A stretch of DNA of 64,000 nucleotides from Streptomyces sp. NBS 14/10. GTDB taxonomy: Bacteria > Actinomycetota > Actinomycetes > Streptomycetales > Streptomycetaceae. A model generated the notes under the pieces. It saw nothing but the letters and a program-made list of their open reading frames with translations. It was not told the DNA's origin and ran no database searches. Positions 12,528-45,233 of this stretch are shown piece by piece. Every line of letters starts with the position of its first letter. The stretch's first letter is position 1. The stretch spans positions 146,659-210,658 of the forward strand of contig NZ_NCSM01000012.1 of NCBI RefSeq assembly GCF_002224125.1, written 5' to 3'. The position numbers and the translations under genes are program-made.

Positions 12528-12558
12528 TCACTCTCAGCTATTCACTCTTAGCTGATCA
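12517..12558. repeat. Three tandem 14-bp repeats across two convergent stop codons
   Basis: Three imperfect 14-mers run head to tail at 12517-12530, 12531-12544 and 12545-12558 (consensus CTCTCAGCTGATCA). The TGA of the sensor phosphatase (12525-12527) is in the first copy. The stop of the converging 869-residue gene (12548-12550) is in the third. Confidence 0.85.
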
Positions 12559-15157: not shown

Positions 15158-15225
15158 GCCGGGTGTTCTCCGATCGTCGAGAAGAGTGCAGGGGAGCAAG
15201 AAGGGGGAGGGGCGGGAAGAGGGGC

Positions 15226-17061: not shown

Positions 17062-17125
17062 AGTGGTCTGTTCCCTCGTTGTGTGTCTGTCGATGTCCGA
17101 AACGGCTCGCCGGCGAGCCCGGCCG

Positions 17126-18643: not shown

Positions 18644-18729
18644 GCCGCGTTCCGGCGCGGCCCTGTCCGGCCCCGCTACCAAGAACGTTATCCACCGGGT
18701 CTGACAGCGCCGCTTCGGGTCCGTCGCGC

Positions 18730-28293: not shown

Positions 28294-29233
28294 GTCCGGC
28301 CCCCACGAGGGTCAAAAAGGCGTCCTCCAGTGACGGTGTGCGGTACTCGACCGCCCCGATGCCGATCCCCAGCGTCTCCGCACGGGTCAGCAGCGCGGGG
28401 AGGCGGGCCCGCATGCCCTGGCCCCTGACCTCGACCTCACCCTCGCCGGTCGTCACCCGCAGCGGTGGCTGCGCCTGGCCGAGCAGGGCCAGCAACGCGT
28501 CGGTGTCCTGTGGGCGCTCCGGGCGCACCAATGCCACCTGGCCGCCGAACCGCTCGGCGAGTTCGCGCGGGGCCGCGAACTCGACCAGCCTGCCGTGGTC
28601 GACCACCAGGACCCGCCGGCAGTTGCGCTCCACCTCCTCCACGTAATGACTGGTCCACAGCATGGTGGTGCCATGTCGGCGGCGCAGTTCGTGCAGCAGC
28701 GACCACACCTGGCGGCGGGCGCCCACGTCCAGCCCGGCGGAGGGCTCGTCGAGGAGCAGCAGCGGCGGATCGCCGAGCAGCGCCCGAATGACCTGGAGGC
28801 GCCTTCTCTCCCCGCCGGAGAGGGTGAAGGTGAGCTGGCCGGTCTTGCCGTCCAGCCCGAAGGCGGTGAGCAGATCGTCCACCTGCCGCCGGACGTCGCG
28901 CCAGCGCAGCCCCTTGTATCTGGCGGCGGTCCGCAGATTGTCCAGGGCGGGCAGCATCATGTCGAACGGGCCGCTCTGGTGGACGACGCCGATACCGCGT
29001 TTCACCGCTCCCGTGGGCCCCGCGGGGTCGGCCCCGAACACCTCCACGGTGCCCCGGGTGGGCACGGTGGCCCCGCAGATCATCTTGATGAGTGTGGTCT
29101 TCCCGGCCCCGTTCGGGCCCAGCAGGCCGATGACCTCGCCCGGTTCGATGGCGAACGACAGCCGGCTCACCGCGTCGTGTGCCATGCCGTCGTACCGCTT
29201 GACCAGCTCATCCGCATGGACCGCGGGCGTCAT
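28283..29233 (-). CDS. ABC transporter ATP-binding protein (RiPP operon)
   Basis: The 316-residue ATPase has Walker A GPNGAGKT (39-46), signature LSGGERRRLQ, Walker B LLLLDEPSAGLD and a C-terminal extension of the DrrA type. It begins within the last codons of the PqqD-like gene (4-bp overlap) and overlaps the permease gene by 11 bp. It powers the ABC-2 exporter of the peptide operon. Confidence 0.92.
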   Translation of the reverse strand: MTPAVHADELVKRYDGMAHDAVSRLSFAIEPGEVIGLLGPNGAGKTTLIKMICGATVPTRGTVEVFGADPAGPTGAVKRGIGVVHQSGPFDMMLPALDNLRTAARYKGLRWRDVRRQVDDLLTAFGLDGKTGQLTFTLSGGERRRLQVIRALLGDPPLLLLDEPSAGLDVGARRQVWSLLHELRRRHGTTMLWTSHYVEEVERNCRRVLVVDHGRLVEFAAPRELAERFGGQVALVRPERPQDTDALLALLGQAQPPLRVTTGEGEVEVRGQGMRARLPALLTRAETLGIGIGAVEYRTPSLEDAFLTLVGAGHDG

Positions 29234-29607
29234 GCCGACGGGCCCGCGGCCCCGGACGGGGCGACGTCGTCGGTCACGTCGGCCATATCGGCCATATCAG
29301 TCGCGTCAGTCGCGTCAGCCGCGGCGGCCGCGTCGGTCAGCAGAAGTCCCTGCCCCGCCAGCGTGTCCAGGAACTCGTGCACATCCCGCATGACCACGGC
29401 CGCCTGCCCGGTGTCCTCGACGGCGTACCGCCGCACCATCTGGGACGCGATGCCGGCCGCGTCGGCGGGATTTCCCTCGGACACGAGGATCCACAGCTCG
29501 GCACCCGTGCTGTTGAGGGTCTGGAACTCGCCTGAATGGCCGTCGTATAGCCGCACTTCGCCGTCGTCGGCCATCCAGACGACGTCGGGGGCGATCCGGT
29601 AGCGCAT
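29230..29607 (-). CDS. PqqD-family RiPP recognition protein
   Basis: The 125-residue protein has the PqqD fold over about residues 1-92 (VVWMADDGEVRLYDGHSGEFQTLN, split here as VVWMADDGEV and HSGEFQTLNSTGAELW, later VHEFLDTLAGQGLL). Such proteins bind the leader of a precursor peptide and present it to a radical SAM enzyme. The last 30 residues are an acidic repeat tail encoded by 9-bp duplications (29283-29320), probably disordered. It sits 12 bp behind the maturase gene and overlaps the ATPase gene. Confidence 0.87.
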   Translation of the reverse strand: MRYRIAPDVVWMADDGEVRLYDGHSGEFQTLNSTGAELWILVSEGNPADAAGIASQMVRRYAVEDTGQAAVVMRDVHEFLDTLAGQGLLLTDAAAAADATDATDMADMADVTDDVAPSGAAGPSA

Positions 29608-29619
29608 GGACGTATCCCT

Positions 29620-31041
29620 TCAGTCGACGAGGGGGAGGAGGCGGCGGCCCGCGGTCTTCCAGTCCTCGTACACCGGGTGGACCGTGTCGTCCCGGACCAG
29701 ATGAGGCTGGAGCATCTGGTCCTGGTGCTCGGTGAGTTGGCGTCCGGACACCCCGGCGGCCCGCCACCAGTTGGAGATCATGGAGTGGCGCAGCATCCGG
29801 CACAGATGGCGGCCGTTGCGGTGCACATCGCCGCTCTCCGCCATGTGGTACGCCCGGCAGCCACCGCCGCAGGCCGCCCGGATGTAGCAGCGGCGGCAGT
29901 CCTTCAGATTCTCGCCGCTGAATACGCTGTTGCCGCGCATATCGGCCAGCACCGGGGCCGCGAAGAGTTCGGTCAGCCGCTGCTCCCGTACATTACCGGC
30001 CTTGTGCACCGGCTCCGTGACGAGTTTGCACGGATACACATCGCCCAGTGAATTTATATAGATCTCATTGCCGCCCATGCCGCAGTTTCCCCTGATGGTG
30101 CAGGGCTTGCTGGCCTTGGGGCCGTCGGGGAGCAGCTTGTCGGCCATCGGATTGGTCCAGAAGAATGTCTGGATCTTCTGGAAATCCCGCCATCCGAATT
30201 CATATCCGTCGGTCGCCGCGCGGCCGAGGTCCGAGTGGTACATGAGGCGCACCCGGCGCACCTTGAGATCGTCCACGAATTCGCAGACCTTCTCCAGGGC
30301 GTCCACGTTCTCCGGTGTCACCACATGATTGATGACGGGGACGACACCCGCCTCGTTGAGCAGCCCCAGACCCTTCCCGGTCCGGGCGAACGTGCCCTTG
30401 CCGCGGGTCCGCTCGTGTATCTCCGCGGTGCCGCCGTCCACGCTCACGGTCACCGTGCCGAAGATCTCGGAGATCTGCCGTGCGATCTCCGCCGTGCGGA
30501 TCATCGTGCCATTAGTGATCATGTTGACGGTCAGTCCGCGCTCGCGGGCGTGCGATGCCACCAGGAACAGGTCCTTGCGCAGCATCGGCTCGCCGCCCGT
30601 GAAGATCATCTGCCGTACGCCCATGTCCGCCGCCTGATCGACGAGGTCGAGCGATTCCTCGGTGGACAACTCCCCGGGCAGGCACTTCTCCGATGAGGCG
30701 TAGCAGTACGGGCAGCGCAGATTGCAGCCGTCGGTGATCGCGTAATAGACGGTCGTGAGGCTCGGCTCGGGCTGGCGCACCGCCGGGCGATGGCCGGGCA
30801 GATAGACGATCCACTTGAGCACGAGCTTGGCCAGGACGCGCTCCACCTCGGCGGCGGATCCGCCGCCGGACGACGGGGGCTCCTGGCCGCGGCTGAGCGA
30901 TTTCAGCACGGCGGATTCCGGTTCGGTGAGCACACACCAGGCGGCCAGTTCGGGGTTGGCGACCAGCTGCTTCTCCGCGTTCCGGAAATAGACGAGATCT
31001 TCGGGAACGATCAGGTCGGACCACTGTTCCAGTAGCTTCAT
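29620..31041 (-). CDS. Radical SAM/SPASM peptide maturase
   Basis: The 473-residue enzyme has the radical SAM cluster Cys106-x3-Cys110-x2-Cys113 in CNLRCPYCYAS and the SAM-binding FTGGEPMLR. A C-terminal SPASM/twitch region holds many cysteines (GNCGMGG, VYPCKL, KDCRRCYIRAACGGGCRAY, HLCRML) for auxiliary clusters. Such enzymes install thioether or carbon-carbon links in ribosomal peptides. I chose ATG 31041, with GGGAGG seven bases upstream; the upstream frame runs through the precursor hairpin. It lies between the precursor gene and the PqqD gene, so the 45-residue peptide is its probable substrate. Confidence 0.92.
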   Translation of the reverse strand: MKLLEQWSDLIVPEDLVYFRNAEKQLVANPELAAWCVLTEPESAVLKSLSRGQEPPSSGGGSAAEVERVLAKLVLKWIVYLPGHRPAVRQPEPSLTTVYYAITDGCNLRCPYCYASSEKCLPGELSTEESLDLVDQAADMGVRQMIFTGGEPMLRKDLFLVASHARERGLTVNMITNGTMIRTAEIARQISEIFGTVTVSVDGGTAEIHERTRGKGTFARTGKGLGLLNEAGVVPVINHVVTPENVDALEKVCEFVDDLKVRRVRLMYHSDLGRAATDGYEFGWRDFQKIQTFFWTNPMADKLLPDGPKASKPCTIRGNCGMGGNEIYINSLGDVYPCKLVTEPVHKAGNVREQRLTELFAAPVLADMRGNSVFSGENLKDCRRCYIRAACGGGCRAYHMAESGDVHRNGRHLCRMLRHSMISNWWRAAGVSGRQLTEHQDQMLQPHLVRDDTVHPVYEDWKTAGRRLLPLVD

Positions 31042-31057
31042 CCTGCACCTCCCATGA

Positions 31058-31093
31058 GCAGGCGGGGCGCCGGCCGCGCCGGGCCCCGCCTGC
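31058..31093 (-). terminator. Attenuator-like hairpin between precursor and maturase genes
   Basis: GCAGGCGGGGC (31058-31068) and GCCCCGCCTGC (31083-31093) form a perfect 11-bp stem, and the loop can form a further 4-bp inner stem. Lying just after the precursor stop and before the maturase ribosome binding site, it could end most transcripts after the precursor gene, giving more substrate than enzyme. Confidence 0.65.
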
Positions 31094-31123
31094 CGGCTGA
31101 CGGGGACTGCCGACAGCCGTCGG

Positions 31124-31261
31124 TCAGATCTCGAGTCTCGGCTCGGACTCCGCGTTACCGGACCCGGCGCCGGCACCGCCCGAACAGTCGCAGGAGCACG
31201 GCTGGTCGATGTCGAACTCGATCGGAAGCATTTCCGGCTTCACCCAGACAGGACTTTCCAT
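31124..31261 (-). CDS. RiPP precursor peptide (45 aa, Cys-x-Cys-x-Cys core)
   Basis: The 45-residue peptide starts at ATG 31261 with AAAGGACGA just upstream. The N-terminal leader (about 1-20) contains WVKPEMLPIEFDID, resembling hydrophobic leader motifs bound by PqqD-like domains. The core has Cys22, Cys24 and Cys26 in PCSCDCSGG, followed by a Gly/Ala/Ser run and an acidic tail ending LEI. The position directly upstream of a radical SAM/SPASM maturase, a PqqD protein and an exporter makes it the substrate. Sactipeptide- or ranthipeptide-type thioethers from the three Cys are plausible but not shown. Confidence 0.8.
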   Translation of the reverse strand: MESPVWVKPEMLPIEFDIDQPCSCDCSGGAGAGSGNAESEPRLEI

Positions 31262-32618: not shown

Positions 32619-33788
32619 ATGTCGACGGTAATTGTTATCGGATATAGACCCGATCTCGACCAGGCCCTGCGGCGTCGAGGTTTGGATCCCTTCTATATAG
32701 CGCAGGAACCGGCGATTCCCCCGAAGGATCGACGATTCAAGCGTGTCATCGACATCGAGAATGTCCAGGAAGTATTGCGAGCGGTGCTCTCCGCGCCCAT
32801 CGATGATGTGGTGGCGGCGCTGAGCGTCCATGAAATGGGCGTATTCGCGGCAATCTATCTGCGGCAGCAGCTGAATCTTCCCGGGAATACAGATTCAAAG
32901 ACGGCCCTTTATTTCCGGGACAAGTACCTTCAGAAGAGCAAGCTGCCGCCCCATATCAGGCGGGCTCGCTGCCGATACGTGTCACAGGACACCTCGTTCG
33001 CGGATCTCGCCGACGACCTGGGGAACGTCTTCGTGGTCAAGCCGGCTACCGGCGCCGGCTCGCTCCGTACCAGCATCGTCCGTTCCCCGGAGGAGTATTC
33101 ACGAGCCCTGGAGCCGTTCCCGGGCCACTCGGACGTCCAGATCGTCGCCGAATCCTTCATAGACGCCCCGGAAGTCTATATCGACGGGGTCTGGGAGAAC
33201 GGCGATCTCCGATGGTCGTCCATGAGCAATTACCACGTATCACCGCTGACGGCCGCGCAAGGCGGCATCATGGCCGCCTACCTGCTGGACAAAAGGCGGC
33301 ATTCAACACTGTTCCATGAGTCGGAGACACTCGCCGGCCAGGTACTCTCCAGCCTGAACGCACCTGATTGTGTATTCCACTTGGAGATCTTCACCACGGA
33401 GGCGGGGCTGACTTTCGGCGAGTGCGCCATCCGTATTCCAGGAGGGCTGACCCCTCAGATGACCCAGTTGACATTCGGCGTCGACCTCTTCGACGTCGAA
33501 ATCAGCATCGCGCTCGGGGAAGGGGCATCTAAAGAACTGAGCAAAAACAGGACGCCGGATCGATTCCACGGCTGCATTCTGCTGCGCCCTGGCAAGGACG
33601 GCAAGCTGACCCAAGCAGACTTCGAACGCAACTTCGTTTTCGATGAGATTGATTATAATTCATCTCCTGATGCGCCGATCGGGCCGTACGGCCTCGTCGG
33701 CAAGGCAATCGTATCCGACCAGGACGAGCTGAAACTGCAGAAAAAGATCGAGGACATCGTGCGCTTCAACGAGACCGGGTCCACCTGA
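32619..33788 (+). CDS. ATP-grasp family ligase, first gene of putative biosynthetic cluster
   Basis: The 389-residue cytoplasmic protein has an ATP-grasp layout: an N-terminal Rossmann-like part (VIVIGYRPDLDQALRR), an ATP-binding segment VFVVKPATGAGSLRT and a later acidic metal-binding segment (FHLEIFTTEAGLTFGECAIR). Such enzymes join a carboxylate to an amine with ATP. Start ATG 32619 follows a strong GGGGAGG. The gene is visibly less GC-rich than its neighbours (codons such as ATT, TAT, AAT), suggesting recent acquisition. It probably forms an amide bond in the product of the genes that follow. Confidence 0.85.
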   Translation: MSTVIVIGYRPDLDQALRRRGLDPFYIAQEPAIPPKDRRFKRVIDIENVQEVLRAVLSAPIDDVVAALSVHEMGVFAAIYLRQQLNLPGNTDSKTALYFRDKYLQKSKLPPHIRRARCRYVSQDTSFADLADDLGNVFVVKPATGAGSLRTSIVRSPEEYSRALEPFPGHSDVQIVAESFIDAPEVYIDGVWENGDLRWSSMSNYHVSPLTAAQGGIMAAYLLDKRRHSTLFHESETLAGQVLSSLNAPDCVFHLEIFTTEAGLTFGECAIRIPGGLTPQMTQLTFGVDLFDVEISIALGEGASKELSKNRTPDRFHGCILLRPGKDGKLTQADFERNFVFDEIDYNSSPDAPIGPYGLVGKAIVSDQDELKLQKKIEDIVRFNETGST

Positions 33789-34074
33789 TCCGCCGGCCCC
33801 CGGAGCGAGCCGTCGGCCCGGAACGTCCGGCGCCCATGAGATCACCTCGCCGCGCTCCTCTGCGCCGCGGGCGCCGAGCCGCGTCCGGCCCCGGCCACAT
33901 TCACCTGTGACGCACCACCCGTGACCCGCCCGAGATCCGTGACATCCCCAGGGTCCCCATAACCATCCGTCCGTGATGGGCATTCAGCGCCGGGCCACGT
34001 GTCGTTCGCGACACGCCGCGCCCGAGCCGCTGCTCCCTCTTGTTTTCCGTGACTTCCGATCGGAGGACTTCCCC

Positions 34075-36822
34075 ATGCCGGATCGACTTCCCGCTGCGAC
34101 GCTCCCTCAGCTGCTTGAACGTGCCGCGTCCGACGCCACGCACGGCGTTACCTTCAGCACCTTCAACGGGGGGTTGTTCCTGTCGTACGCCGAGTTGCGG
34201 GAGTGCGCCTGCCGGATTTCCCAAGGGCTGCGCGACTACGGCACCGCCCCGGGCGACCGGGTGCTGATCGAGGCCAATGATCCGGAGAATTTCTTCCGCG
34301 CCTTCTGGGGGTGTGTGCTCGCCGGTCTCGTGCCGTGCCCGATCGCACCGCCGGCCGACCCCTCCCGATGGCGCGCACAACTGGAGCATCTGCGCACCCT
34401 CTTGGGCGACCCGCTGATGGTCGTCTCCAAGGCGGCCCATGGAGACCTGCCCGATATCGGCCTGCGGACCGTGACGGTCGAGGAGTTGAGCCATGCCTCG
34501 GCCGAGCACGATCAGCTCCATACGCCCGCCCCGGACGATCTCGCCCTGCTGATGCTCACCTCCGGATCCACCGGATCGAGCAAGGCGGTCAGGCTCACCC
34601 ACGCCAATCTGCTGGCGGCTCAGGCCGGTAAGGCGGGGGCGCTGGAACTGGGGCCCGACGACAAGTCGTTGAACTGGATCTCGGCCGATCACATCGCCGC
34701 GATCGAGGCACATCTGCTGCCGATGTTCAATGGGGCCGATCAGGTCATGACGACTCCCGCCACGGTGCTGGCGGACCCCGTGGAGTTCCTGAGGCTGGTC
34801 GCGGCTCATCGGGTGCGCGTGACCTTCACCCCCAACTTCCTGTTCGGACAGATCAACCAGGCCCTCTCCGGGCGGCAGCCCGCGCCGGAGGACCTGGATC
34901 TGTCAGGGGTGCGGCACATCATCTCCGGCGGCGAGGCCACCGTGACCGCCACTGTACGGACATTCCTGGGTACGCTCGCCCGCTACGGGTTGCGCGAGGA
35001 CGTGATAGTGCCCGCGTTCGGCATGACCGAGACATGCGCGGGGTCCATCTTCAACCGCGACTTCGCCAACCAGGACCTCGAGACGGAGTTCCCTCCGCTG
35101 GGCCGCCCGGTGCGGGGCCTGCGGATCCGTATCACGGGCGGCGACGGCGCGGTGCTGGCCTCCACCGACGAGCCCGCGTCGGCCGAGCCGGGCGAGGTAC
35201 AGCTGCGCGGCACGATGGTCTCCGCCGGCTACTTCGGCAATGAGGAGGCCACCGCCCAGGCATTCACCCCCGACGGCTGGTTCCGCACCGGCGATCTGGG
35301 CTACCTCGACTCCGAGGGGCGGTTGATGCTGGTCGGCCGCACCAAGGACTCCATCATCGTCAGCGGCGTCAACTACTACAGCCACGACCTGGAAGCGGTC
35401 CTCGACGAGCTGGACGGGGTGAAGCGCGGGCAGGTCGCGGCCTTCCCGATCCGGCCGGAGGGGGCCGACTCCGAACAGCTCGCCGTCGCCTTCGTACCGG
35501 CGGGCGACCCCGCCGACGATACGGCCGTCTACCGGGCCATCGTGTCGATCCGCAGCTCCACGGTGATGCACTGGGGGTTCCGCCCGCAGCTGATCCTCCC
35601 CGTCGCCGAGGCCGATCTGCCCCGCGGCAACCTCGGCAAGATCCAACGGTCGCGGCTGCGCGCGGCCGTCGAGGACGGCGGCCTGGACGCGGCGGCCCGC
35701 CGGTCGGACGAGGTCAGCACCCGGTTCCTCGGCGGCTATGTGGCGCCGGAGGGCGACGTCGAAACCGCGCTGGCCGCCATCTACGCCCGCGTACTGAACA
35801 CCGAGAAGGTGCCGGCGACCGCCAGCTTCTTCGATCTGGGCGGGACCTCGCTGGACGTGCTGCGGCTCAAACTGGAGACCCAGCTCGAATTCGGCATCGA
35901 CGATCTGCCCATGTCGACGCTGCTGCAGGCCCCGACCGTACGAGCGCTCGCCGGCCGCCTGCGGGGCGGGGAGTGCGACGACGGGGACTCCGCCTACGAT
36001 CCGCTGGTGCCGCTGCAGGTCACCGGGGACGGGACGCCCCTGTTCTGCGTCCATCCCGGCCTGGGGGAGGTGCTGGTGTTCATCAACCTCGCCAAGTACT
36101 TCACCGGCGAGCGGCCGTTCTACGCGCTGCGGGCACGCGGGTTCGGCCAGGGCGAGACCCACTTCGGATCGTTCGACGAAATGGTGTCCACCTATGTGGA
36201 GGCCATCCGGCGAGTGCAGCCCAGCGGCCCGTACGCCGTCGCGGGGTACTCCTACGGCGGGGCGGTGGCCTTCGAGATCGCCAAGCGGCTGGAGGCCGAC
36301 GGCGACCCGGTCGACTTCGTGGGGGTCTTCAACCTGCCGCCGCGGATCTCCGGCCGCATGAACGAGATCAGCTTCACCGACGGCGCCATCAACCTGGCGC
36401 TGTTCCTGGAGTTGATCGACGCCGCCGATATCGAGGAGCTGACCGCCACGCTCCGCCCGCTGCCCGAGCCCGATCAGCTGGCCTATCTGATCGACCACGC
36501 GCCGAAGCGCCGGCTGACCGAACTGGACCTCACCCTCGAGCGGTTCACCGCCTGGGTCGACCTGGCCCAGAGCATGGTGCACCTGGGCCGCGACTACGAG
36601 CCGTCGGGGTCGGTCGGGCAGGTCAAGGTCTTCTACTGCACCCCGCTGCGCGGTACCAAACAGGAGTGGCTGGACGACCAGCTGAGCCACTGGGACGAGT
36701 TCACTCGCGACGCCAACACCTTTATCGAGGTCGACGGGGAGCACTACACCTTGATGAGCCCGCAGCATGTGCACACGTTCCAGGCGACCCTGCGGCAGGA
36801 ACTGGCCCGCGCGCTCGGCTGA
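34075..36822 (+). CDS. NRPS-like adenylation-carrier-thioesterase protein
   Basis: The 915-residue enzyme has three domains. Residues 1 to about 560 are an acyl/aryl-adenylating domain (LTSGSTGSSKAVRLTHANLL, FGMTETCAG, TGDLGYLDSEG, with the catalytic Lys in GNLGKIQR). A carrier domain has its phosphopantetheine Ser at 592 (FFDLGGTSLD). A type I thioesterase has nucleophile Ser726 (GYSYGG) and His890 (GEHYTLM). No condensation domain is present. It activates one acid, holds it as a thioester and releases it by hydrolysis, cyclisation or transfer. Start ATG 34075 has GGAGG eight bases upstream. It follows the ATP-grasp gene after 286 bp. Confidence 0.92.
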   Translation: MPDRLPAATLPQLLERAASDATHGVTFSTFNGGLFLSYAELRECACRISQGLRDYGTAPGDRVLIEANDPENFFRAFWGCVLAGLVPCPIAPPADPSRWRAQLEHLRTLLGDPLMVVSKAAHGDLPDIGLRTVTVEELSHASAEHDQLHTPAPDDLALLMLTSGSTGSSKAVRLTHANLLAAQAGKAGALELGPDDKSLNWISADHIAAIEAHLLPMFNGADQVMTTPATVLADPVEFLRLVAAHRVRVTFTPNFLFGQINQALSGRQPAPEDLDLSGVRHIISGGEATVTATVRTFLGTLARYGLREDVIVPAFGMTETCAGSIFNRDFANQDLETEFPPLGRPVRGLRIRITGGDGAVLASTDEPASAEPGEVQLRGTMVSAGYFGNEEATAQAFTPDGWFRTGDLGYLDSEGRLMLVGRTKDSIIVSGVNYYSHDLEAVLDELDGVKRGQVAAFPIRPEGADSEQLAVAFVPAGDPADDTAVYRAIVSIRSSTVMHWGFRPQLILPVAEADLPRGNLGKIQRSRLRAAVEDGGLDAAARRSDEVSTRFLGGYVAPEGDVETALAAIYARVLNTEKVPATASFFDLGGTSLDVLRLKLETQLEFGIDDLPMSTLLQAPTVRALAGRLRGGECDDGDSAYDPLVPLQVTGDGTPLFCVHPGLGEVLVFINLAKYFTGERPFYALRARGFGQGETHFGSFDEMVSTYVEAIRRVQPSGPYAVAGYSYGGAVAFEIAKRLEADGDPVDFVGVFNLPPRISGRMNEISFTDGAINLALFLELIDAADIEELTATLRPLPEPDQLAYLIDHAPKRRLTELDLTLERFTAWVDLAQSMVHLGRDYEPSGSVGQVKVFYCTPLRGTKQEWLDDQLSHWDEFTRDANTFIEVDGEHYTLMSPQHVHTFQATLRQELARALG

Positions 36823-36865
36823 GGACCGGTGCCCGGCAGGGGACCGACGTTCGGCTGAGGACCGG
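36815..36865. repeat. 15-bp direct repeat, 36-bp period, at gene end
   Basis: TCGGCTGAGGACCGG occurs at 36815-36829, across the stop of the adenylation-carrier-thioesterase gene, and again at 36851-36865 in the spacer before the epimerase gene. Confidence 0.85.
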
Positions 36866-36902
36866 CAGAGGCAACCGCTCATACGACCAGGAGCCGCTGA
36901 AC

Positions 36903-37853
36903 ATGCAAGGCAAGAAGATTCTCATCACCGGTGGAACCGGACAGGTCGCCAGGCCCGTCGCCGAGGCGCTCGCCTCGGACAACGAGGTGTGGTGCCTGGG
37001 CCGGTTCGGCGACGCGGACGCCCGTAAGGCCCTCGAAGGACTGGGCGTCCGCACCGCCACCTGGGACATGGCCACCGATGATCTGGAGGGCCTGCCGCGC
37101 GACTTCACCCACGTACTGCACTCGGCGGTGCACCGGGGCGACGGCCATGACTTCGAGGAGACCACGCGCATCAACGCCGTCGGCACCGCACGGCTGATGA
37201 CCCACTGCTCCGCCGCCGAGTCGTTCCTGTACGTATCGTCCGGCGTGGTCTACAACCGGGCCGATCGGACACATCGATACCAGGAGAGCGACCCGCTGGG
37301 CGGGGCGGCGCCGTGGCTGCCGACGTACCCCGTCGCCAAGATCACCGCCGAAGGAGTGGCGCGCGGCCTGGCCGAAACGCTTGGGCTGCCGACGGTGATA
37401 GCCCGCCTCAACATCGCCTACGGTCCGTACGGTCACGGCGGCGTGCCCATGATCCTGTTCAGGGAGATGCGCGGGGGACAGGCGTGCGCGGTGCCCCGCG
37501 AAGGGCAGAACTACTGCAACCTGCTGCACACCGATGACGTCGTCCGCCAAGTACCGCTGCTGTGGGGCGTCGCGCAGGCGCCCGCGCGGGTGGTGAACTG
37601 GGGCGGCGACGAGGAGGTCGGCATCACCGACCTGCTGGAGTACATGTCCGAGCTCACCGGAGTGCCGGTGCGGCTGGACCGCGGCGACTACAGCCGGGAA
37701 ACGGCGATCTTCGACCACGACGTCCGCCGCGGCCTGATCGGCGACTGCTCCATCGGCTGGCAGGCCGGTATCGCCCGCACTCTGTCCGACCTGTTCGAGG
37801 AGTACCGCGACCGCATCGACGAGCACATCGCCGCGCACGGAACATCCAAGTGA
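36903..37853 (+). CDS. NAD-dependent epimerase/dehydratase (extended SDR)
   Basis: The 316-residue extended short-chain dehydrogenase has the cofactor motif GGTGQVA at residues 10-16. The catalytic Ser is in YVSSGVVY, and Tyr142 and Lys146 are in the YxxxK motif TYPVAK. Such enzymes epimerise, dehydrate or reduce nucleotide sugars or thioester-bound intermediates. AGGAG lies upstream of ATG 36903. It is the third gene of the cluster, and its stop overlaps a possible GTG start of the next gene. Substrate is unknown; no sugar-nucleotide synthase is nearby, so a non-sugar substrate is possible. Confidence 0.87.
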   Translation: MQGKKILITGGTGQVARPVAEALASDNEVWCLGRFGDADARKALEGLGVRTATWDMATDDLEGLPRDFTHVLHSAVHRGDGHDFEETTRINAVGTARLMTHCSAAESFLYVSSGVVYNRADRTHRYQESDPLGGAAPWLPTYPVAKITAEGVARGLAETLGLPTVIARLNIAYGPYGHGGVPMILFREMRGGQACAVPREGQNYCNLLHTDDVVRQVPLLWGVAQAPARVVNWGGDEEVGITDLLEYMSELTGVPVRLDRGDYSRETAIFDHDVRRGLIGDCSIGWQAGIARTLSDLFEEYRDRIDEHIAAHGTSK

Positions 37854-37876
37854 CGAAGAGGAGTGGGGATTCGAGC

Positions 37877-39856
37877 ATGCGCAGGTCCGCAGATATCGAC
37901 GCGCTTGAGCAGGTACTGTGCGCGGCCCTCGGCACCAGCGCGCCTGTGTGCTCGCTGGCTCGACTGGGCCAGGGCGCCCGCGCGTTCGCCGGTCTGGACC
38001 CCGCGGTGCTCGACCGCCCCACCCTCGTCGCCGGCGGGGCCCCGTACCTTCCGACGAGCCCCGCCCCCACCGCCCAGGCCCTCGAAGAACTGCTCCGCCG
38101 CGCCGAGGCGCTGGACGTGTCCCAGATCCTGGTGCCCGGCGTGCGCCGCAGTGATGACACCGGCCCGCTGCGGGCGGCAGGGCTCATCCCCGTCGCCGCC
38201 GAAAGCGAGTGTGTCGTCCGGCTGCCCGGGGAGCCGGCGGCGGGTGCTTTGGACGATGTCCTGCGGGAGCGCCTTGGCGCCCAGCAACTCGGCGAACTGC
38301 GGCGCTGCCACGAGGAGGTGTCCCGTGGCGTCTCCTGGGAGCACATCCCGCTGAGTGACCTCGACGGGAAGCCCTGGGCGCGGGATGCCTTCGTGGAGCT
38401 CCATCAGCGCCAGGCCGAGCGCGACGAAGGCCACGACAGCCTCTACAACGCCGACGCCCTCGACGTACTGGCACAGGGAGTGCTGGCGGACCGCACCGAG
38501 ATGTTCGTGTGCCGCGGAGAGAACACCGTGGCCGGGGCCGGGCTCATCACGAGGTCCCACAACGGCAGGGGGCTCTACGTCCTCACGCAGGCCCTCGACC
38601 ACGACGATCCCGATGCGCGCCGCGACTTCTCCCTGGCGTCCGCGTACCGGCTGTACCTCCACACCCGGCACTCCGGCCTGGACTGGGTCCACCTCGGGCG
38701 GGGGGAGCCGCACCACATGCGGCGCCTCGGGGCGGACCTCTTCGTCCCCCTCGACCACTGGCTCCGCGCTCCCGGCCTCGCGGCCCCGGAGAAGGCGGAG
38801 GAGCAGGCGCTGTCGGAGTTCGCGACGCCCCCCGTCGCGGCGGTCCCGGTCCCGGGTCCGGCCCGCTTCCGAGCCGTGCCACGGTTCGACCAGATCGACC
38901 TGTCGAGCAACACCAACCCGTTCCTGGGTACCGAGGGCAACTATCCCGACCTGGACACGGCGGAGCTTGCTCACACATATCTGACGACCATCTCGCAGCT
39001 GCCCGGTCACGACGGCGTCGACGCGCTGACCGCGGAACACCTGCTGTTCACCAGCGGGGCGGTGGACGGCGTCCTGCTGCTCCTGGCAGCGCTGGCCTCG
39101 CCGGGCGAGGGCGTCTGTGTCACGCCCCCCACCTTTCCGCTCTACACCCACTTCGCCCGCGTCCTGCGCCTGCCCGTCACCGAGGTGCCGCTGGGTGGCG
39201 ACGATCTGTCCCAGGTCGACACCGAGCGGATCCTGGCGGCGGATCCGCGGGTGACCTTCCTGTGCGATCCGGGCAACCCCTCAGGCACCAGGATCGATCC
39301 CGCGCAGGTGCATGCCCTGGTGACACGCGGCCGTGGACTGGTGGTGATCGACGAGGCCTATGTCGAATTCAGCGAGAAGCCCTCGTACGCCGGGTTGGTT
39401 GCCCAGCACGACAACCTCATCGTGCTCAGGACGCTCTCCAAGGCATGGGGCCTGGCCGGAGCGCGCTGCGGGATCGCCCTGGCCGACCCCGGCATCATCG
39501 AGGCACTGCGGCGGGTGCAGGTGCCCTTCGGGTTCACCAACGCATCGCAGCGCGCCGCACGGGACCGGCTGACCAACTCCCAACCGGTGCTCGACGGCAT
39601 CCGGCGCATCCGCGCCGAGCGTGATCGGCTGGCCGGGGTACTGGTCGACCACCCCGCCGTGGACCGGGTGTTCCCCTCGGATACCAACTTCCTGCTGGTC
39701 CGGTTCCACAAGCACGAACGCGTCGTGGATCAGCTCAGCGGTGCGGGAATTCTCGTCGCCGACGTCGGGCGTCTCGTCCCCGACACCTGCCGCATCACCA
39801 TCGGCGATCAGCATGCGAACGCCGCCCTGCTCGAAGCACTCTCCTCTGCTCTGTGA
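37877..39856 (+). CDS. GNAT-like acyltransferase fused to PLP aminotransferase
   Basis: In the 659-residue fusion, residues 1 to about 300 look like a GNAT/FemAB-type acyltransferase (VHLGRGEPHHMRRLGADLF near its end). Residues from about 335 on are a fold-type I PLP enzyme of the HisC family (LSSNTNPFLG, DPGNPSGTR, DEAYVEFS). The PLP lysine is Lys522 in TLSKAWGLAGARCG, followed by FGFTNASQ. This could couple transamination or decarboxylation of an amino acid to N-acylation. ATG 37877 is chosen with GGAG upstream; an alternative GTG 37850 would overlap the epimerase stop by four bases. The fusion is unusual for either family. Confidence 0.85.
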   Translation: MRRSADIDALEQVLCAALGTSAPVCSLARLGQGARAFAGLDPAVLDRPTLVAGGAPYLPTSPAPTAQALEELLRRAEALDVSQILVPGVRRSDDTGPLRAAGLIPVAAESECVVRLPGEPAAGALDDVLRERLGAQQLGELRRCHEEVSRGVSWEHIPLSDLDGKPWARDAFVELHQRQAERDEGHDSLYNADALDVLAQGVLADRTEMFVCRGENTVAGAGLITRSHNGRGLYVLTQALDHDDPDARRDFSLASAYRLYLHTRHSGLDWVHLGRGEPHHMRRLGADLFVPLDHWLRAPGLAAPEKAEEQALSEFATPPVAAVPVPGPARFRAVPRFDQIDLSSNTNPFLGTEGNYPDLDTAELAHTYLTTISQLPGHDGVDALTAEHLLFTSGAVDGVLLLLAALASPGEGVCVTPPTFPLYTHFARVLRLPVTEVPLGGDDLSQVDTERILAADPRVTFLCDPGNPSGTRIDPAQVHALVTRGRGLVVIDEAYVEFSEKPSYAGLVAQHDNLIVLRTLSKAWGLAGARCGIALADPGIIEALRRVQVPFGFTNASQRAARDRLTNSQPVLDGIRRIRAERDRLAGVLVDHPAVDRVFPSDTNFLLVRFHKHERVVDQLSGAGILVADVGRLVPDTCRITIGDQHANAALLEALSSAL

Positions 39857-39894
39857 GCCATATCGTTCAGCCGTTCAGCCGAAAGGATCCGGTC

Positions 39895-40323
39895 GTGGGT
39901 AGCGATTCTCCCTCCGATTCCCCTCTTTCCAGCACTGTCGTCGCCGAAGGGTTCGATCGCTGGAGCCCCCCGCTGAAAGAGGATTTCGATAACAACGCCC
40001 ATAACGGCCGTGTTGGTCAGTCGCTGCTGAAAGAGACCGATTCGCTGCGCATCTGGGAGACCCATCTCCAGCCGGGAGAACGGATTTCCGTCCATCGGCA
40101 TGTCCTGCCCTACCACTGGATAGCCCTCACAGACGGCCAAGCCCGTCAGCACAACAGCGACGGCAGTACGCGGGAGATTTCCTATGTCCGCGGCCAGACC
40201 CGGTATTTTGATGTCGCGGCAGGGCGATACCACCTGCACGATCTGAAGAACATCGGCGATGAGGTTCTGTCGTTCCTGACCATTGAGACAAAGGGCGGGC
40301 CCAACGAGCCCATTCAGCTCTGA
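39895..40323 (+). CDS. Small cupin-domain protein of the biosynthetic cluster
   Basis: The 142-residue protein is a single cupin barrel with a His-rich metal site (ERISVHRHVLPYHWIAL, later GRYHLHDLKNIGDEVL). It could be an isomerase, oxygenase, or binding protein. GTG 39895 is used because AAAGGA lies seven bases upstream; a frame-extending GTG at 39853 overlaps the previous stop and would add 14 residues. It is the last plus-strand gene before a strong terminator. Some CDSs in the cluster, this one included, use less GC-biased codons than housekeeping neighbours. Confidence 0.78.
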   Translation: MGSDSPSDSPLSSTVVAEGFDRWSPPLKEDFDNNAHNGRVGQSLLKETDSLRIWETHLQPGERISVHRHVLPYHWIALTDGQARQHNSDGSTREISYVRGQTRYFDVAAGRYHLHDLKNIGDEVLSFLTIETKGGPNEPIQL

Positions 40324-40340
40324 AGAGGATTGAGATGTGC

Positions 40341-40372
40341 CGGCCCGCAGGGCGAAACCGCCCTGCGGGCCG
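40341..40372. terminator. Perfect 14-bp bidirectional terminator
   Basis: CGGCCCGCAGGGCG (40341-40354), loop AAAC, and CGCCCTGCGGGCCG (40359-40372) form a perfect stem between the converging cupin and carbamoyltransferase genes. Confidence 0.92.
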
Positions 40373-40377
40373 ACGGC

Positions 40378-42159
40378 TCAGCCCTCCTTCTTGGTGATCA
40401 CGTACCGGTCGATCACCAGGTAGTCGATCTCGGTGGCGAGGAAGCACTCCAGCGCGTCCCGCGGTGAGCAGACGATGGGCTCACCGGCCACATTGAACGA
40501 GGTGTTGAGGAGGCAGGGCACCTCCGTACGCGCCGTGAAGGCCCGCAGCAGCCGCGCGAGCTCGGGGTTCTGCAGCGCGTCGACTGTCTGGATCCGTGCC
40601 GTGCCGTCCACATGACAGGCGCCGGGGATCCGCTCCCGGTACTCCTTCCGCACCGGGAAGACGAAGGTCATATACGGGGACGAGGTCTTCTTGCCCAGCT
40701 CGAAGACGCGCGGAGCCTCGGATTCAAGGACGACGGGCGCGAACGGGCGGAAGGGCTCCCGGTGTTTCACCCGGAGATTGATGATGTCCTTGATGTCGGG
40801 GAAGGCCGGGTTGGCGAGGATGCTGCGGTTGCCCAGGGCGCGCGGGCCGAACTCGGCGCGGCCCTGGAACCAGCCCACGACGTTCTTCCCGGCCAGCAGC
40901 TCCGCCGTCCGCTCGGCGACCGCGGCGGCGTCGGGTTCCTCCTGCCATTCGACGCGATCCGCGTACTCCGCCAGCGCGTCCAGGACCTGCGTCTCGTCGT
41001 ACGAGGGCCCCAGATAGGGGGTGGTGACCGCGTCGGCGGGCCGGTTCCTGAGACCGGCGGTGTACACGGCCGCGCCGATGGCGACGCCCGGGTCGCTGGC
41101 CCCGAAGCTGACCTCCATCCCGGTGAGCGACGACCTCTCCAGCATCTTCGTATTGGCCACGCAGTTGAGCGCCAGACCGCCCTCGAAGAGCAGGGTGTCC
41201 AGATCGGAGGACGCGGTCAGGGCACGCAGCTGATGCGCGGTGATGGCCTCGACCATGTGCTGGGCAAGACCGGCGACCTTGACCCGGAAGTCGAACTGTT
41301 CGCGCTTCTCGCTGTCGCCGCCGAAGAGGCTGTCGAACAGTGCGTAGTAGGCCCCGATGTCCATGGGGATGGAGATGGTGTACGAACCGTCCTCATGCAG
41401 CCGCACCACGCGCTCGAGCAGCGGGTTGTGCTGCGGCGGCGGGCCGTACGCGGCCAGGCCCATCACCTTGTACTCGTCGTTGTTGGGCACGAACCCCAGA
41501 TAGCGGGTGATCCGCCCGTAGGCCACCCCGAGCGAACTGGTCATGGGCACGGTGCCGCCCTCGAACAGCCTGACCACGCCGTTCCGCAACTCGCCCATGA
41601 CGGCGGACAGGGTCTCCGCCCGGCCGTCGCTCACCAGGAAGGCGGCGTCGCCCCCGCCGGCCAGATAGGCCCCGCACATGAGATGGGCCAGATGGTGGGG
41701 CACCAGGGTGAGCTTGTTGGGATCCAGTTCATAGCCCGTGCGCTGGACGAAGTCGCTGTACACCGCCTCGCGGCTGAACATGCCGGCGTAGACCTCACCC
41801 GCGCTGCGCAGGGCGTCGAACTTGGCCGTGACCGGCAGGTCGGAGTCGCATATCTGGGAAATCATCTCCTCGGCCACGGTGGGCGAAAAGCGCCAGGGGA
41901 AAGCGAAAACGTCCACCTGGTCGAGGTCGACACCGGCGGAGTCCAGGCACCACTTGATTGCCTGGGCCGGAAAATCGGAGGTCTTCTTGACCCGGCTCAG
42001 CCGCTCCTCCTCGACTGCCGCAACCAACTCGCCGTCGATCACAAGAGCCGCCGCGGCGTCATGACCCACCAAAAGATTGCGGCCGACACCGGTCGCCCCG
42101 TAGAGACGTCCGAAAAGCTCCGCGCCTCTGCTGAATCCGTTGTAACCGAGCACGATCAC
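40378..42159 (-). CDS. O-carbamoyltransferase (TobZ/NodU/CmcH family)
   Basis: The 593-residue enzyme has an N-terminal Kae1-like domain (GHDAAAALVIDG, VEEERLSRVKK). The metal-binding His155 and His159 are in PHHLAHL and Asp178 is in FLVSDGR, spaced as in TobZ. The C-terminal YrdC-like motif WFQGRAEFGPRALGNRSIL follows, then a carboxy-terminal LLNTSFNVAGEPIV. It converts carbamoyl phosphate and ATP to a carbamoyl adenylate and transfers the carbamoyl group to a hydroxyl. The start is GTG 42159 with GGGAGG upstream. Although on the opposite strand, it converges on the cluster and probably tailors the same product. Confidence 0.93.
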   Translation of the reverse strand: MIVLGYNGFSRGAELFGRLYGATGVGRNLLVGHDAAAALVIDGELVAAVEEERLSRVKKTSDFPAQAIKWCLDSAGVDLDQVDVFAFPWRFSPTVAEEMISQICDSDLPVTAKFDALRSAGEVYAGMFSREAVYSDFVQRTGYELDPNKLTLVPHHLAHLMCGAYLAGGGDAAFLVSDGRAETLSAVMGELRNGVVRLFEGGTVPMTSSLGVAYGRITRYLGFVPNNDEYKVMGLAAYGPPPQHNPLLERVVRLHEDGSYTISIPMDIGAYYALFDSLFGGDSEKREQFDFRVKVAGLAQHMVEAITAHQLRALTASSDLDTLLFEGGLALNCVANTKMLERSSLTGMEVSFGASDPGVAIGAAVYTAGLRNRPADAVTTPYLGPSYDETQVLDALAEYADRVEWQEEPDAAAVAERTAELLAGKNVVGWFQGRAEFGPRALGNRSILANPAFPDIKDIINLRVKHREPFRPFAPVVLESEAPRVFELGKKTSSPYMTFVFPVRKEYRERIPGACHVDGTARIQTVDALQNPELARLLRAFTARTEVPCLLNTSFNVAGEPIVCSPRDALECFLATEIDYLVIDRYVITKKEG

Positions 42160-42574
42160 TGGCTCTCAGCCTCCCAAGCACAACAGTAGCCAAAGCTAGA
42201 ACAGGCTACTCGGCTCGCATACTTGAGGGATAGGCATGATGCGTAAACAGGTAGTGGTCCGATTTCCGGGCGACGGCGCCTCCGGGAGAAATTCGCACCG
42301 AATGTCGTACCGCTTTCCTGTGCCGACGACCGTCGGCCGGGTGCGGGGCCCGAGGTCCGGTCGGTGGGCCGGTCCGCCAACCGGTCCGTCGACCAGCCCG
42401 TCTGTTGGTCCGTCGGCCAGTGTCGATGCGGTGGCTGAATCGTGTCAACTTCTTTGGGCGGCACAACCCTTGACGCACGGCCGCATACGCCCATAGCTTC
42501 CTGGCCATCAAATCGAAACGTTTCAACTTCGGGCGGTGTTGAGCTGGGGACCGCCCTGCCCCCGAAGGAGACGC
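42160..42574. promoter_or_regulatory. Divergent promoter region, carbamoyltransferase and glycosidase operon
   Basis: The 415-bp gap contains degenerate repeats of GGTCCGTC/GGTCGGT type (about 42355-42425). A promoter TTGACG (42470-42475), 18 nt, TAGCTT (42494-42499) faces the glycosidase operon. A perfect palindrome GAAACGTTTC (42515-42524) lies just downstream of the -10, a repressing position. I could not pick out a clear promoter for the carbamoyltransferase gene. Confidence 0.6.
42515..42524. promoter_or_regulatory. LacI-family operator for the glycosidase operon
   Basis: GAAACGTTTC is a perfect 10-bp palindrome with a central CpG, flanked by T and A at matching distance, which is the standard LacI/GalR-family operator form. 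It lies 15 bases after the -10 element of the operon promoter. No lacI-type gene is in the window. Confidence 0.65.
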
Positions 42575-45175
42575 ATGCCATTGACCGGATCCGGAGCAGC
42601 CGCAGGGCCCCGTATGAGCCGCAGACGGGCGCTGGCCGCGGGTGGCGCGGCCGCCGCCGCGTGGGCCGTCGGACTGCCCACCCCCGCCTTCGCCGATGCC
42701 CCCGACCCCGCTTCTGCCGACGCCGACGCCGAGGCCGACTCCGTCGCCGCCCCCGCCCGGTTGGCGCCCTTCCCGCTCTCCGCCGTGCGGCTGCTGGAGA
42801 GCCCCTTCCTGGCCAATATGCGGCGCACCCTGTCCTATCTGCGCTTCGTCGACGCGGAGCGGCTGCTGCACACCTTCCGGCTGAACGTCCGACTCCCCTC
42901 CACCGCCCAGCCGTGCGGCGGCTGGGAGGCGCCGAACGTGCTGCTGCGCGGCCACAGCACCGGGCATCTGCTCTCCGCGCTGGCCTTCGCCCATGCGAAC
43001 ACCGGCGAGCAGACGTACGCGGACAAGGCGCGCGGAATCGTGGCGGCGCTCGCCGAGTGTCAGGCGGCCTCGCCCGGTGCGGGCTACCGGACGGGCTATC
43101 TGTCCGCGTTCCCCGAGCGGATCTTCGACGACCTCGAGGCGGGCGGCAAGCCGTGGGCCCCGTACTACACCATCCACAAGATCATGGCCGGGCTGCTCGA
43201 CCAGCACCGGCTCAGCGGAAACGACCAGGCCCTTGAGGTGCTGCGGGGGATGGCCGCGTGGGTCGACTCCCGCACCGCCCCGCTCGACGAGGCCACCATG
43301 CAGCGGCTCCTCGGCGTGGAGTTCGGCGGTATGAACGAGGTGTTGGCGGGGCTGTACCTGGTCACCGGCGACCCCGTCCAGCTGCGGACCGCGCGCCGCT
43401 TCGACCACCAGTCGCTCTACGGCCCGCTGGACGAGGGGCGCGACGAGCTCGACGGGCGCCACGCCAACACCGAGATCGCCAAGATCGTGGGCGCGGCCGA
43501 GGAGTACCGGGCCACCGGGGACCCGCGCTATCTGCGGATCGCGCGGAACTTCTGGGACTTCGTGGTGCGCGACCACTCGTATGTCATCGGCGGCAACTCC
43601 AACCAGGAGTTCTTCGGCCCGCCCGGGCAGATCGTCAGCAGGCTGTCGGAGGACACCTGCGAGAACTGCAACAGCTACAACATGCTCAAGATCGGCCGTC
43701 AGCTGTTCCTCCACGAGCCGGGCAGGGCGGCGTACATGGACCACTACGAGTGGACCCTGTACAACCAACTGCTCGGCGAGCAGGACCCCGACTCCGACCA
43801 CGGCTTCGTCACGTACTACACCGGTCTGTGGGCCGGGTCGCGCCGACAGCCCAAGGGCGGCCTCGGCTCCGCGCCCGGCAGCTACAGCGGCGACTACGAC
43901 AACTTCTCCTGCGACCACGGCACCGGGATGGAGACCCACACCAAGTTCGCGGACACCATCTACTTCCGCGACGAGGACGCCGGCGCCCTGTACGTCAACC
44001 TCTTCATCCCCTCCGAAGTGACATGGGCCGAGCGCGGATTCCGGCTGGTCCAGCGGTCCGGCTATCCCGACACCGACACCGTCCGGCTGACCGTCGCCGA
44101 AGGCGGCGGGCGGCTCGCGCTCAAGGTGCGGGTGCCCGGCTGGCTGGCGGACTCAGGACCTCGGGCCCGGGTACGGGTGGGCGGGCGGCCGGTGGACGCC
44201 ACACCGGTGCCGGGCCGCTATCTGACCCTCGACCGGCGCTGGCGCACCGGTGACACCGTCGAGCTGACCTTCCCGCGTGAGCTGGTGTGGCGCCCGGCGC
44301 CGGACAACCCGCATATCAAGGCGGTGTCGTACGGCCCGCTGGTGCTGGCCGGTGCGTACGGGGAGCAGGCCCTGAGCACCATCCCGGACATCGAGCCGTC
44401 GTCAGTGCGGCGAGTGGCGGGGCGTGGCGGGCCGGAGTTCACGGCGGTGGCCGAGGGGGAGAAGGTGCCGCTGCTGCCCTTCCACCGGGTGCACCACCAG
44501 AGCTACAACGTCTACTTCGCCGTTCCGCCGCGCGGCTCCGGGCGGCGCGAGATCGCCCACTTCCCGCTGGCCGAGGGCGCCGGGGCGACCAGCGCGGACG
44601 CGCTGCGCCGCTTCCCGGACGCCCGGCTGGCCGGCGGCGCCACCTGGACCACCGAGGGGCCGCGGGCGGTGGCGCTGGACGGGAAGGACGGCCATATCGC
44701 GCTGCCACCGGGGCTGCTGACGGGCCTGCCGCAACTCACCCTCTCGGTAAGGGTGTTCCTGGACAGCGTGGTCAACTCCGCCCGCGTCTTCGACCTCGGC
44801 TTTCACAAGAACACCTATCTGTTCCTCACCCCGCGCACCGGAGCAGGCAAGGCCCGCGCGGCGTGGAAGATCGCGGGTATGGAGGCGGAGGACTTCATCG
44901 ACGCCTCGGCCGCCCTGGAGCCGGGCCGGTGGACCCATCTGGCGCTCACCCTCGGCGGCGGCAGCGGCGTGCTGTACGTGGACGGCGCGGAGGCCGGGCG
45001 CAACGACGCGGTGGTGTCCGGACCGCTGCTGCTCGGCGCGACCACCCGCAACTACCTCGGCCGCTCCCAGAACCCCACCCACCCCTATCTGCACGGCGCC
45101 GTGGCCGACTTCCGCGTCCTGGGGCGCGCCCTGACCGCCGCCGAGGTCGCCGCGCTGCACCGCGCCAACGGCTGA
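42575..45175 (+). CDS. Secreted GH127-like beta-L-arabinofuranosidase with LamG domain
   Basis: The 866-residue protein has a Tat signal (MSRRRALAAGGAAAAAWAVG, from residue 14). An (alpha/alpha)6 catalytic domain of GH127/DUF1680 type follows (HSTGHLLSALAFAH, EFGGMNEVLAGLY, then SEDTCENCNSYNMLKIGRQL ending at Cys362 and beyond). A C-terminal concanavalin-like LamG domain spans about 670-860. Family members use zinc-bound cysteines to cleave beta-L-arabinofuranosides. The usual Cys-Cys pair appears here as Cys446-Asp447 in FSCDHGTGMETH. ATG 42575 is preceded by GAAGGAG. It is the first gene of a four-glycosidase operon behind a LacI-type operator. Confidence 0.83.
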   Translation: MPLTGSGAAAGPRMSRRRALAAGGAAAAAWAVGLPTPAFADAPDPASADADAEADSVAAPARLAPFPLSAVRLLESPFLANMRRTLSYLRFVDAERLLHTFRLNVRLPSTAQPCGGWEAPNVLLRGHSTGHLLSALAFAHANTGEQTYADKARGIVAALAECQAASPGAGYRTGYLSAFPERIFDDLEAGGKPWAPYYTIHKIMAGLLDQHRLSGNDQALEVLRGMAAWVDSRTAPLDEATMQRLLGVEFGGMNEVLAGLYLVTGDPVQLRTARRFDHQSLYGPLDEGRDELDGRHANTEIAKIVGAAEEYRATGDPRYLRIARNFWDFVVRDHSYVIGGNSNQEFFGPPGQIVSRLSEDTCENCNSYNMLKIGRQLFLHEPGRAAYMDHYEWTLYNQLLGEQDPDSDHGFVTYYTGLWAGSRRQPKGGLGSAPGSYSGDYDNFSCDHGTGMETHTKFADTIYFRDEDAGALYVNLFIPSEVTWAERGFRLVQRSGYPDTDTVRLTVAEGGGRLALKVRVPGWLADSGPRARVRVGGRPVDATPVPGRYLTLDRRWRTGDTVELTFPRELVWRPAPDNPHIKAVSYGPLVLAGAYGEQALSTIPDIEPSSVRRVAGRGGPEFTAVAEGEKVPLLPFHRVHHQSYNVYFAVPPRGSGRREIAHFPLAEGAGATSADALRRFPDARLAGGATWTTEGPRAVALDGKDGHIALPPGLLTGLPQLTLSVRVFLDSVVNSARVFDLGFHKNTYLFLTPRTGAGKARAAWKIAGMEAEDFIDASAALEPGRWTHLALTLGGGSGVLYVDGAEAGRNDAVVSGPLLLGATTRNYLGRSQNPTHPYLHGAVADFRVLGRALTAAEVAALHRANG

Positions 45176-45233
45176 CCCGTACCCCCGAACCTCCACCCCC
45201 GCCCGCACACCCTGTCCCTACGGGAGCACCCCC

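Follow-up and report, generated by a model that had tools for sequence, protein, structure and literature searches.

The closest described systems to the locus studied here are the p-terphenyl clusters for daturamycin (datABC), echoside (echABC) and terfestatin (TerB, TerC), in which an adenylation-carrier-thioesterase (A-T-TE) protein is followed by a TerB/DatB-type short-chain dehydrogenase/reductase (SDR), as described in PMC9379647. According to that source, DatA, like EchA, converts phenylpyruvate to polyporic acid, the DatA product being observed at [M-H]- 291.066. We analyzed a 64,000-nucleotide stretch of Streptomyces sp. NBS 14/10 DNA (hereafter the window), in which a six-gene locus at positions 32619..42159 combines an A-T-TE protein and a TerB-like SDR with four further enzymes. 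The A-domain and TE motifs of this A-T-TE protein are shared with EchA-like proteins. Unlike the p-terphenyl clusters, however, the locus is without a SnoaL gene of the TerC/DatC/EchC type, and it adds an ATP-grasp protein, a GNAT-aminotransferase fusion, a cupin and often an O-carbamoyltransferase. On the strength of these homologies we favor, with moderate confidence, a cluster for small-molecule biosynthesis that would follow p-terphenyl (polyporic-acid) logic, nitrogen tailoring replacing the usual dehydration. The six genes are as follows.

32619..33788, plus strand: putative ATP-grasp ligase, 389 aa, related to L-amino acid ligases by a PDB match, with its Pfam ATP-grasp match below the cut-off
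34075..36822, plus strand: A-T-TE protein, 915 aa, with AMP-binding, PP-binding and Thioesterase domains over the Pfam cut-off
36903..37853, plus strand: TerB-like SDR reductase, 316 aa, with Pfam SDR over the cut-off, PDB match 6nd7 (TerB) and a YxxxK motif in the sequence
37877..39856, plus strand: fusion, 659 aa, of a GNAT-like half (residues ~1-300) and a HisC-like, pyridoxal phosphate (PLP) aminotransferase half (residues ~350-659), with Pfam aminotransferase class I/II over the cut-off
39853..40323, plus strand: small cupin-like protein, 156 aa, with a GTG start and a 4-base overlap with the PLP fusion gene
40378..42159, minus strand: O-carbamoyltransferase, 593 aa, an optional cluster member, with both Pfam domains over the cut-off and PDB match 7xb6

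The first five genes all run in the same direction, separated by 286, 80, 23 and -4 bases. The six frames span 156-915 aa, have third-position GC contents (GC3) of 0.70-0.90 and hold zero TTA codons. An earlier sequence-only reading of the window had proposed these same six genes, and reading frames place every one of them where it had put them. Frame length, GC3 and the presence of largely the same set around 22 fusion relatives in other Streptomycetaceae confirm that the six frames exceed chance.

These relatives were obtained by scanning a species-genome collection with the GNAT-PLP protein; among the best 80 of 418 relatives, 22 were full-length or near-full-length fusions (L009-L030), all in Streptomyces or Wenjunlia, and the synteny counts use only these 22 named loci, one of which (L017) is cut at a contig edge. 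The cupin was found in all 22, lying ~9.5 kb away in L014. An A-T-TE gene was present in 21, L017 ending at its contig edge and L024 holding only a fragment (36% covered), and the SDR adjoins it in the same number, the remaining locus again being L017, which stops too early. A full ATP-grasp gene lies directly upstream of the A-T-TE gene in 17 of the 20 named loci in which the latter is complete, the exceptions being L009 (S. sparsogenes, where it sits on a different contig), L022 and L026. At the level of genomes, all 22 searched (our own and 21 named, the L017 genome having been left out here and in the 27-genome TerC search described below) gave an ATP-grasp match, which is only partial in the L024 genome. 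The carbamoyltransferase falls within the flank in 11/22 named loci. No family beyond the six recurred in more than five of 23 loci in flanks of ~10 kb on each side, based on simple open reading frame calls that overlooked some genes and with SDRs grouped from 18 loci. The sequence-only reading had treated the six genes as one cluster and proposed a search for conserved synteny: its borders agree with the flank comparison, and related Streptomyces indeed keep most of the set together. The fusion was found in 7 genomes, our own included, of an even draw of 246 from the genus, and in 1 of 346 genomes, our own, of a phylum-wide search; in both searches, and in the carbamoyltransferase search of the 246-genome draw described below, no more than the best 3-5 candidates of each genome were scored. 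Near-full-length fusion relatives were also seen outside Streptomyces, in Nocardia (59%) and Sorangium (44-45%; P0085, P0087 and P0088).

The window A-T-TE protein is 53-54% identical to A-T-TE proteins encoded beside TerB- and TerC-like genes. Paralogous loci in our own genome (G000:C56) and in G096 and G165 encode such an A-T-TE protein (53-54%) and an SDR (55%), followed by a SnoaL-type gene; the own-genome paralogous SDR (G000) matches TerB with an E-value of 2.9e-185, and the SnoaL protein of G096 matches TerC with an E-value of 3.1e-80. This is the order of datA-datB-datC and echA-echB-echC as given in PMC9379647. We set 58 window-type A-T-TE proteins against 53 of the second group, that is, 111 of the best 120 of 2319 proteins, leaving out 9 intermediate or partial ones. 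Fixed differences between the two groups at the 93% level number 11, and residues 1-339, which cover most of the A domain, contain none of them. In the TE, both the serine and the histidine motif are preserved, and the TE motifs are common to both groups. Domain order and conserved residues agree with EchA-like proteins, EchA and DatA being known here by description. Furthermore, a PDB search with the A domain gave as its best matches McyG and 6ulw, which we take to be an aryl-acid and a keto-acid enzyme. A keto-acid-condensing, terphenylquinone-type (aryl-pyruvate) synthetase is therefore the probable identity of this protein.

The sequence-only reading had instead proposed that a single acid is activated for amide formation. 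On that account, the A-T-TE protein would activate one acid, the TE would transfer or release it, the ATP-grasp enzyme would form an amide with an amine made by the PLP fusion, and the amide would then be carbamoylated. The ATP-grasp protein is indeed akin to L-amino acid ligases, the carbamoyltransferase follows the cluster, and Pfam found no condensation domain in the cluster proteins. However, the A-T-TE protein and the SDR form an EchA/TerB-type pair, and DatA couples two keto acids although it has no condensation domain (PMC9379647). We consider the one-acid route unlikely: because the A-T-TE protein and the SDR resemble EchA/DatA-type synthetases and TerB, a carbon-carbon bond is probably formed between two alpha-keto acids.

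The paralogous A-T-TE/SDR/SnoaL locus of our own genome, of terfestatin/echoside type, occupies positions 7985-12575 of L102 (G000:C56:43000-62900). A second, terphenyl-type A-T-TE protein is carried by 4 of the 7 cluster genomes searched, so that cross-talk between the pathways could be probed. The host genome measures 12.1 Mb and gave 150 carrier-domain matches.

The SDR provides a second tie to this lineage. Its best solved relative is TerB (PDB 6nd7, E 3.5e-113), which leads the next protein by about 100 orders of magnitude in E-value, the best non-TerB protein reaching only 1e-12. TerB is reportedly, in the paper on TerB and TerC, a p-terphenyl reductase, and the label "epimerase" given to this gene in the sequence-only reading is replaced accordingly. 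A SnoaL gene of the TerC/DatC/EchC type was found neither in the window nor in the 22 named cluster loci, whereas 3/3 paralogous loci have a TerC homologue. Whole-genome searches at an E-value of 1e-30 detected no TerC in 18 of the 27 cluster-bearing genomes, and the pathway can therefore run without it.

Taken together, these homologies allow a pathway to be proposed. Phenylalanine or tyrosine would first be converted to an aryl-pyruvate, via the HisC-like domain or housekeeping enzymes. The A-T-TE protein would then activate two aryl-pyruvates, and its TE would join them by a Claisen-Dieckmann reaction to give a 2,5-dihydroxy-3,6-diarylbenzoquinone or a close relative. In a third step, the TerB-like SDR would turn one carbonyl of the ring into a secondary alcohol. 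Since the cluster has no TerC-type dehydratase, the ring would not simply be aromatized at the fourth step; rather, the aminotransferase half of the fusion could convert a keto group to an amine, which the GNAT half might then acylate. The ATP-grasp enzyme would next attach an amino acid through an amide bond (step 5), the cupin may isomerize or dehydrate the intermediate (step 6), and, in strains that have one, the carbamoyltransferase could cap an alcohol, perhaps the one made by the reductase (step 7). All of these steps are drawn from homology, which best supports the second and third; the amide and the carbamate are plausible as later steps, and the order and substrates of steps 4 to 7 are guesses. 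More tentatively, and with rather less confidence than the terphenyl logic itself, the products may form an undescribed Streptomyces family: a terphenylquinone-type dimer, reduced by a TerB-like enzyme, keeping its alicyclic alcohol in a cluster without TerC, aminated, aminoacylated and, in certain strains, O-carbamoylated.

Several observations weigh against this proposal. A-T-TE enzymes can also produce furanones or other dimers, so that the ring type proposed above is tentative. RalA of ralfuranone reportedly makes a furanone-type dimer from aryl-pyruvates, and the window A-T-TE protein could likewise join two aryl-pyruvates into a furanone or other non-quinone dimer that the remaining genes would tailor. 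The same domain order and keto-acid logic would serve, as would the lack of TerC in the cluster and in those 18 of 27 genomes; nevertheless, 21 of the 22 named loci carry the TerB-like reductase, TerB being reportedly an enzyme of p-terphenyl biosynthesis, and we regard such a dimer as improbable. Turning back to the terphenylquinone-type proposal, the EchA-like label of the 53 second-group proteins rests on 54-59% identity to the query and on the three paralogous loci. TerC is found elsewhere in 9 of the 27 cluster-bearing genomes (our own and 8 of the other 26), and because our own genome is among them, help in trans is possible there. Of the 22 named cluster genomes, 8 have no carbamoyltransferase, and in S. 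spirodelae and NRRL B-1347 the gene is found on a contig other than that of the cluster. When the GNAT half was searched against the PDB as a profile, no hit was credible, the best having an E-value of 0.53. Finally, the daturamycin cluster, as described in PMC9379647, comes without an aminotransferase, and the fusion may therefore serve either precursor supply or core amination.

With regard to the carbamoyltransferase, both domains of the NodU/VtdB/TobZ superfamily are present (PF16861, 240 bits; PF02543, 113 bits), and the protein matches PDB 7xb6 over its full length (763.7 bits, E 1.1e-228). We take 7xb6 to be VtdB, which would carbamoylate the macrolide sugar of venturicidin; no paper on 7XB6 was found in the open-access literature, outside which most subscription journals lie. 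In the 246-genome draw, orthologues of at least 91% identity occur beside the fusion in 4 of 7 cluster-bearing genomes, our own included, and in 0 of 239 cluster-free genomes, where the best match reaches 67%. The association gives a Fisher p of 2.4e-7, or 8.3e-6 (3/6) without our own genome, values that serve as a guide only given that the genomes are related. A copy exists somewhere in 14 of the 22 named cluster genomes, and 3 of the 11 without one in the flank have an 86-88% copy elsewhere, which in S. flavofungini lies ~17 kb downstream on the same contig. Four arrangements were observed (downstream convergent, downstream on the same strand, upstream, and ~6 kb downstream). When presence in the flanks is mapped on the A-T-TE tree, in which L024 is long-branched, 6 changes are needed, at least 4 of them forced by supported branches. 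In NRRL B-1347, the unlinked copy and a second cluster-type ATP-grasp gene are arranged head to head (7066-10269 of L108, G589:C13:99000-114000), a hint that the two enzymes act one after the other.

The gene might still be an accidental neighbor serving another pathway, as its opposite strand, its variable position, its lack in 8 of 22 named genomes and the macrolide-sugar substrate presumed for its best solved relative, 7xb6, would suggest. The distribution of the close orthologues, the four different linked arrangements and the head-to-head pairing with a cluster-type ATP-grasp gene leave this account only a slim chance. The carbamoyltransferase is thus an optional but specific partner of the cluster, and the test raised by the sequence-only reading, that homologues might place it in another locus, comes out in favor of membership. 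Venturicidin-type macrolide carbamoylation was likewise rejected: despite the full-length likeness to 7xb6, the close orthologues of the window enzyme follow the window cluster and, among the 246 genomes searched, those of at least 91% occur only where it is present.

Residues 50-299 of the ATP-grasp protein align with the L-amino acid ligase 4wd3 (E 2.8e-19), which keeps a ligase-like activity open, although the relationship is distant and the match to PF02222 (22.5 bits) stays below the curated cut-off of 27. A second cluster-type ATP-grasp gene in our own genome is split into two overlapping frames of 304 and 136 aa (10354-11576 of L140, G000:C65:1-19900) near a large carrier-domain protein, its counterpart in G603 being a single 386-aa frame. 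The best matches of the PLP half are HisC structures, the phenylalanine aminotransferase Rv3772 also being among them; its score against NCBIfam TIGR01141 (hisC) is 241.2 bits for a cut-off of 276.55, so that it probably works like a HisC-fold enzyme yet is not classed as HisC, and unlike HisC and Rv3772 it is fused behind a GNAT half. No Pfam GNAT domain matched the N-terminal half of the window fusion itself, whereas PF13480 matched 10 of 19 orthologous N-terminal halves at E-values up to 1 (best 5.3e-7). In the AlphaFold model, residues 207-297 follow a strand-helix order that may be read as GNAT-like; the list of structural matches to the full model was filled by the PLP half, so that the GNAT half was barely probed. 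The PLP domain also accompanies 85 of 86 listed relatives of the GNAT half, proteins shorter than ~362 aa not having been candidates.

The window cupin has no Pfam match, and one orthologue gave a weak match to Cupin_2. The cupin was also found in G118 and G136, and an HRH motif, likely a metal site, is kept in 25 of 25 aligned cupins. That site, together with the need of an ATP-grasp ligase for a carboxylate, would suit a route in which the quinone is cleaved to a product of pulvinic-acid type, either by the cupin or by an unlinked oxygenase, and the ATP-grasp enzyme couples an amino acid to the freed carboxylate, but no family match links the cupin to ring cleavage and the aminotransferase-GNAT fusion would be left unexplained, making this the least likely alternative.

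The fusion and the cupin also stand out when the DNA is compared with that of S. milbemycinicus (L030), the nearest relative. Across most of 27.7-45 kb, segments of 300 bases show an identity of 0.92-0.99; isolated segments at 29.2, 33.7, 42.4 and 42.7 kb score lower (0.907, 0.863, 0.910 and 0.893, respectively), and identity drops to 0.81-0.86 along a run at 38.2-40.3 kb, the edge of which reaches 0.900. The fusion and cupin genes accordingly differ at 14-19% of bases, against 1-8% in most flanking segments. Positions 38200-40300 are probably a recombination tract in which the two genes were exchanged as one cassette, suggesting that they act jointly or shape the product.

Bacilysin-type clusters are said to use similar enzyme classes (ATP-grasp, cupin, SDR and aminotransferase); set against that description, the window cluster differs in its A-T-TE protein, carbamoyltransferase and TerB-like SDR. 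A bacilysin-type pathway was therefore rejected, the SDR and the A-T-TE protein pointing to terphenyls. The open-access literature yielded no paper with the six-gene set, none pairing a terphenyl with an ATP-grasp enzyme, and none combining a nonribosomal peptide synthetase-like protein, an ATP-grasp enzyme and a carbamoyltransferase in Streptomyces. The sequence-only reading knew of no characterized cluster of this kind, which holds for the full set in that literature but not for the A-T-TE/SDR core, which has p-terphenyl relatives. To our knowledge, aminoacyl and carbamoyl members of the p-terphenyl lineage would be the first. Because the pathway to which two of the six enzymes can be linked has had its first step reconstituted, the cluster is directly testable, and a natural comparison is available between strains that have the carbamoyltransferase gene and those that do not. 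If correct, the proposal would show the capture of an A-T-TE/TerB pair for nitrogen-bearing products.

Other genes in the window appear separate from the cluster. The radical SAM, PqqD and ABC transporter genes at 27484-31176 were rejected as cluster members, since L030 is the only one of the 22 loci that also has radical SAM and PqqD; L014 and L023 gave distant matches (30-35%) for the ABC ATPase. On the minus strand, 27484-31261 looks like a separate sactipeptide-type locus for a ribosomally synthesized and post-translationally modified peptide, with an ABC transporter pair, a PqqD-like protein, a radical SAM/SPASM protein that exceeds the NCBIfam StsB cut-off (803 versus 625 bits) and a candidate 45-aa precursor with a CSCDC motif at 31124-31261. 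Downstream of the cluster, 42536-48647 encodes a GH127 beta-L-arabinofuranosidase, which of the 22 loci L030 alone has as well, and a GH106-like rhamnosidase. Further upstream, a minus-strand trio at 12548-18841 encodes an 883-aa protein without a Pfam match, an AAA+ ATPase with two matched regions and a DUF2201 metallopeptidase-like protein.

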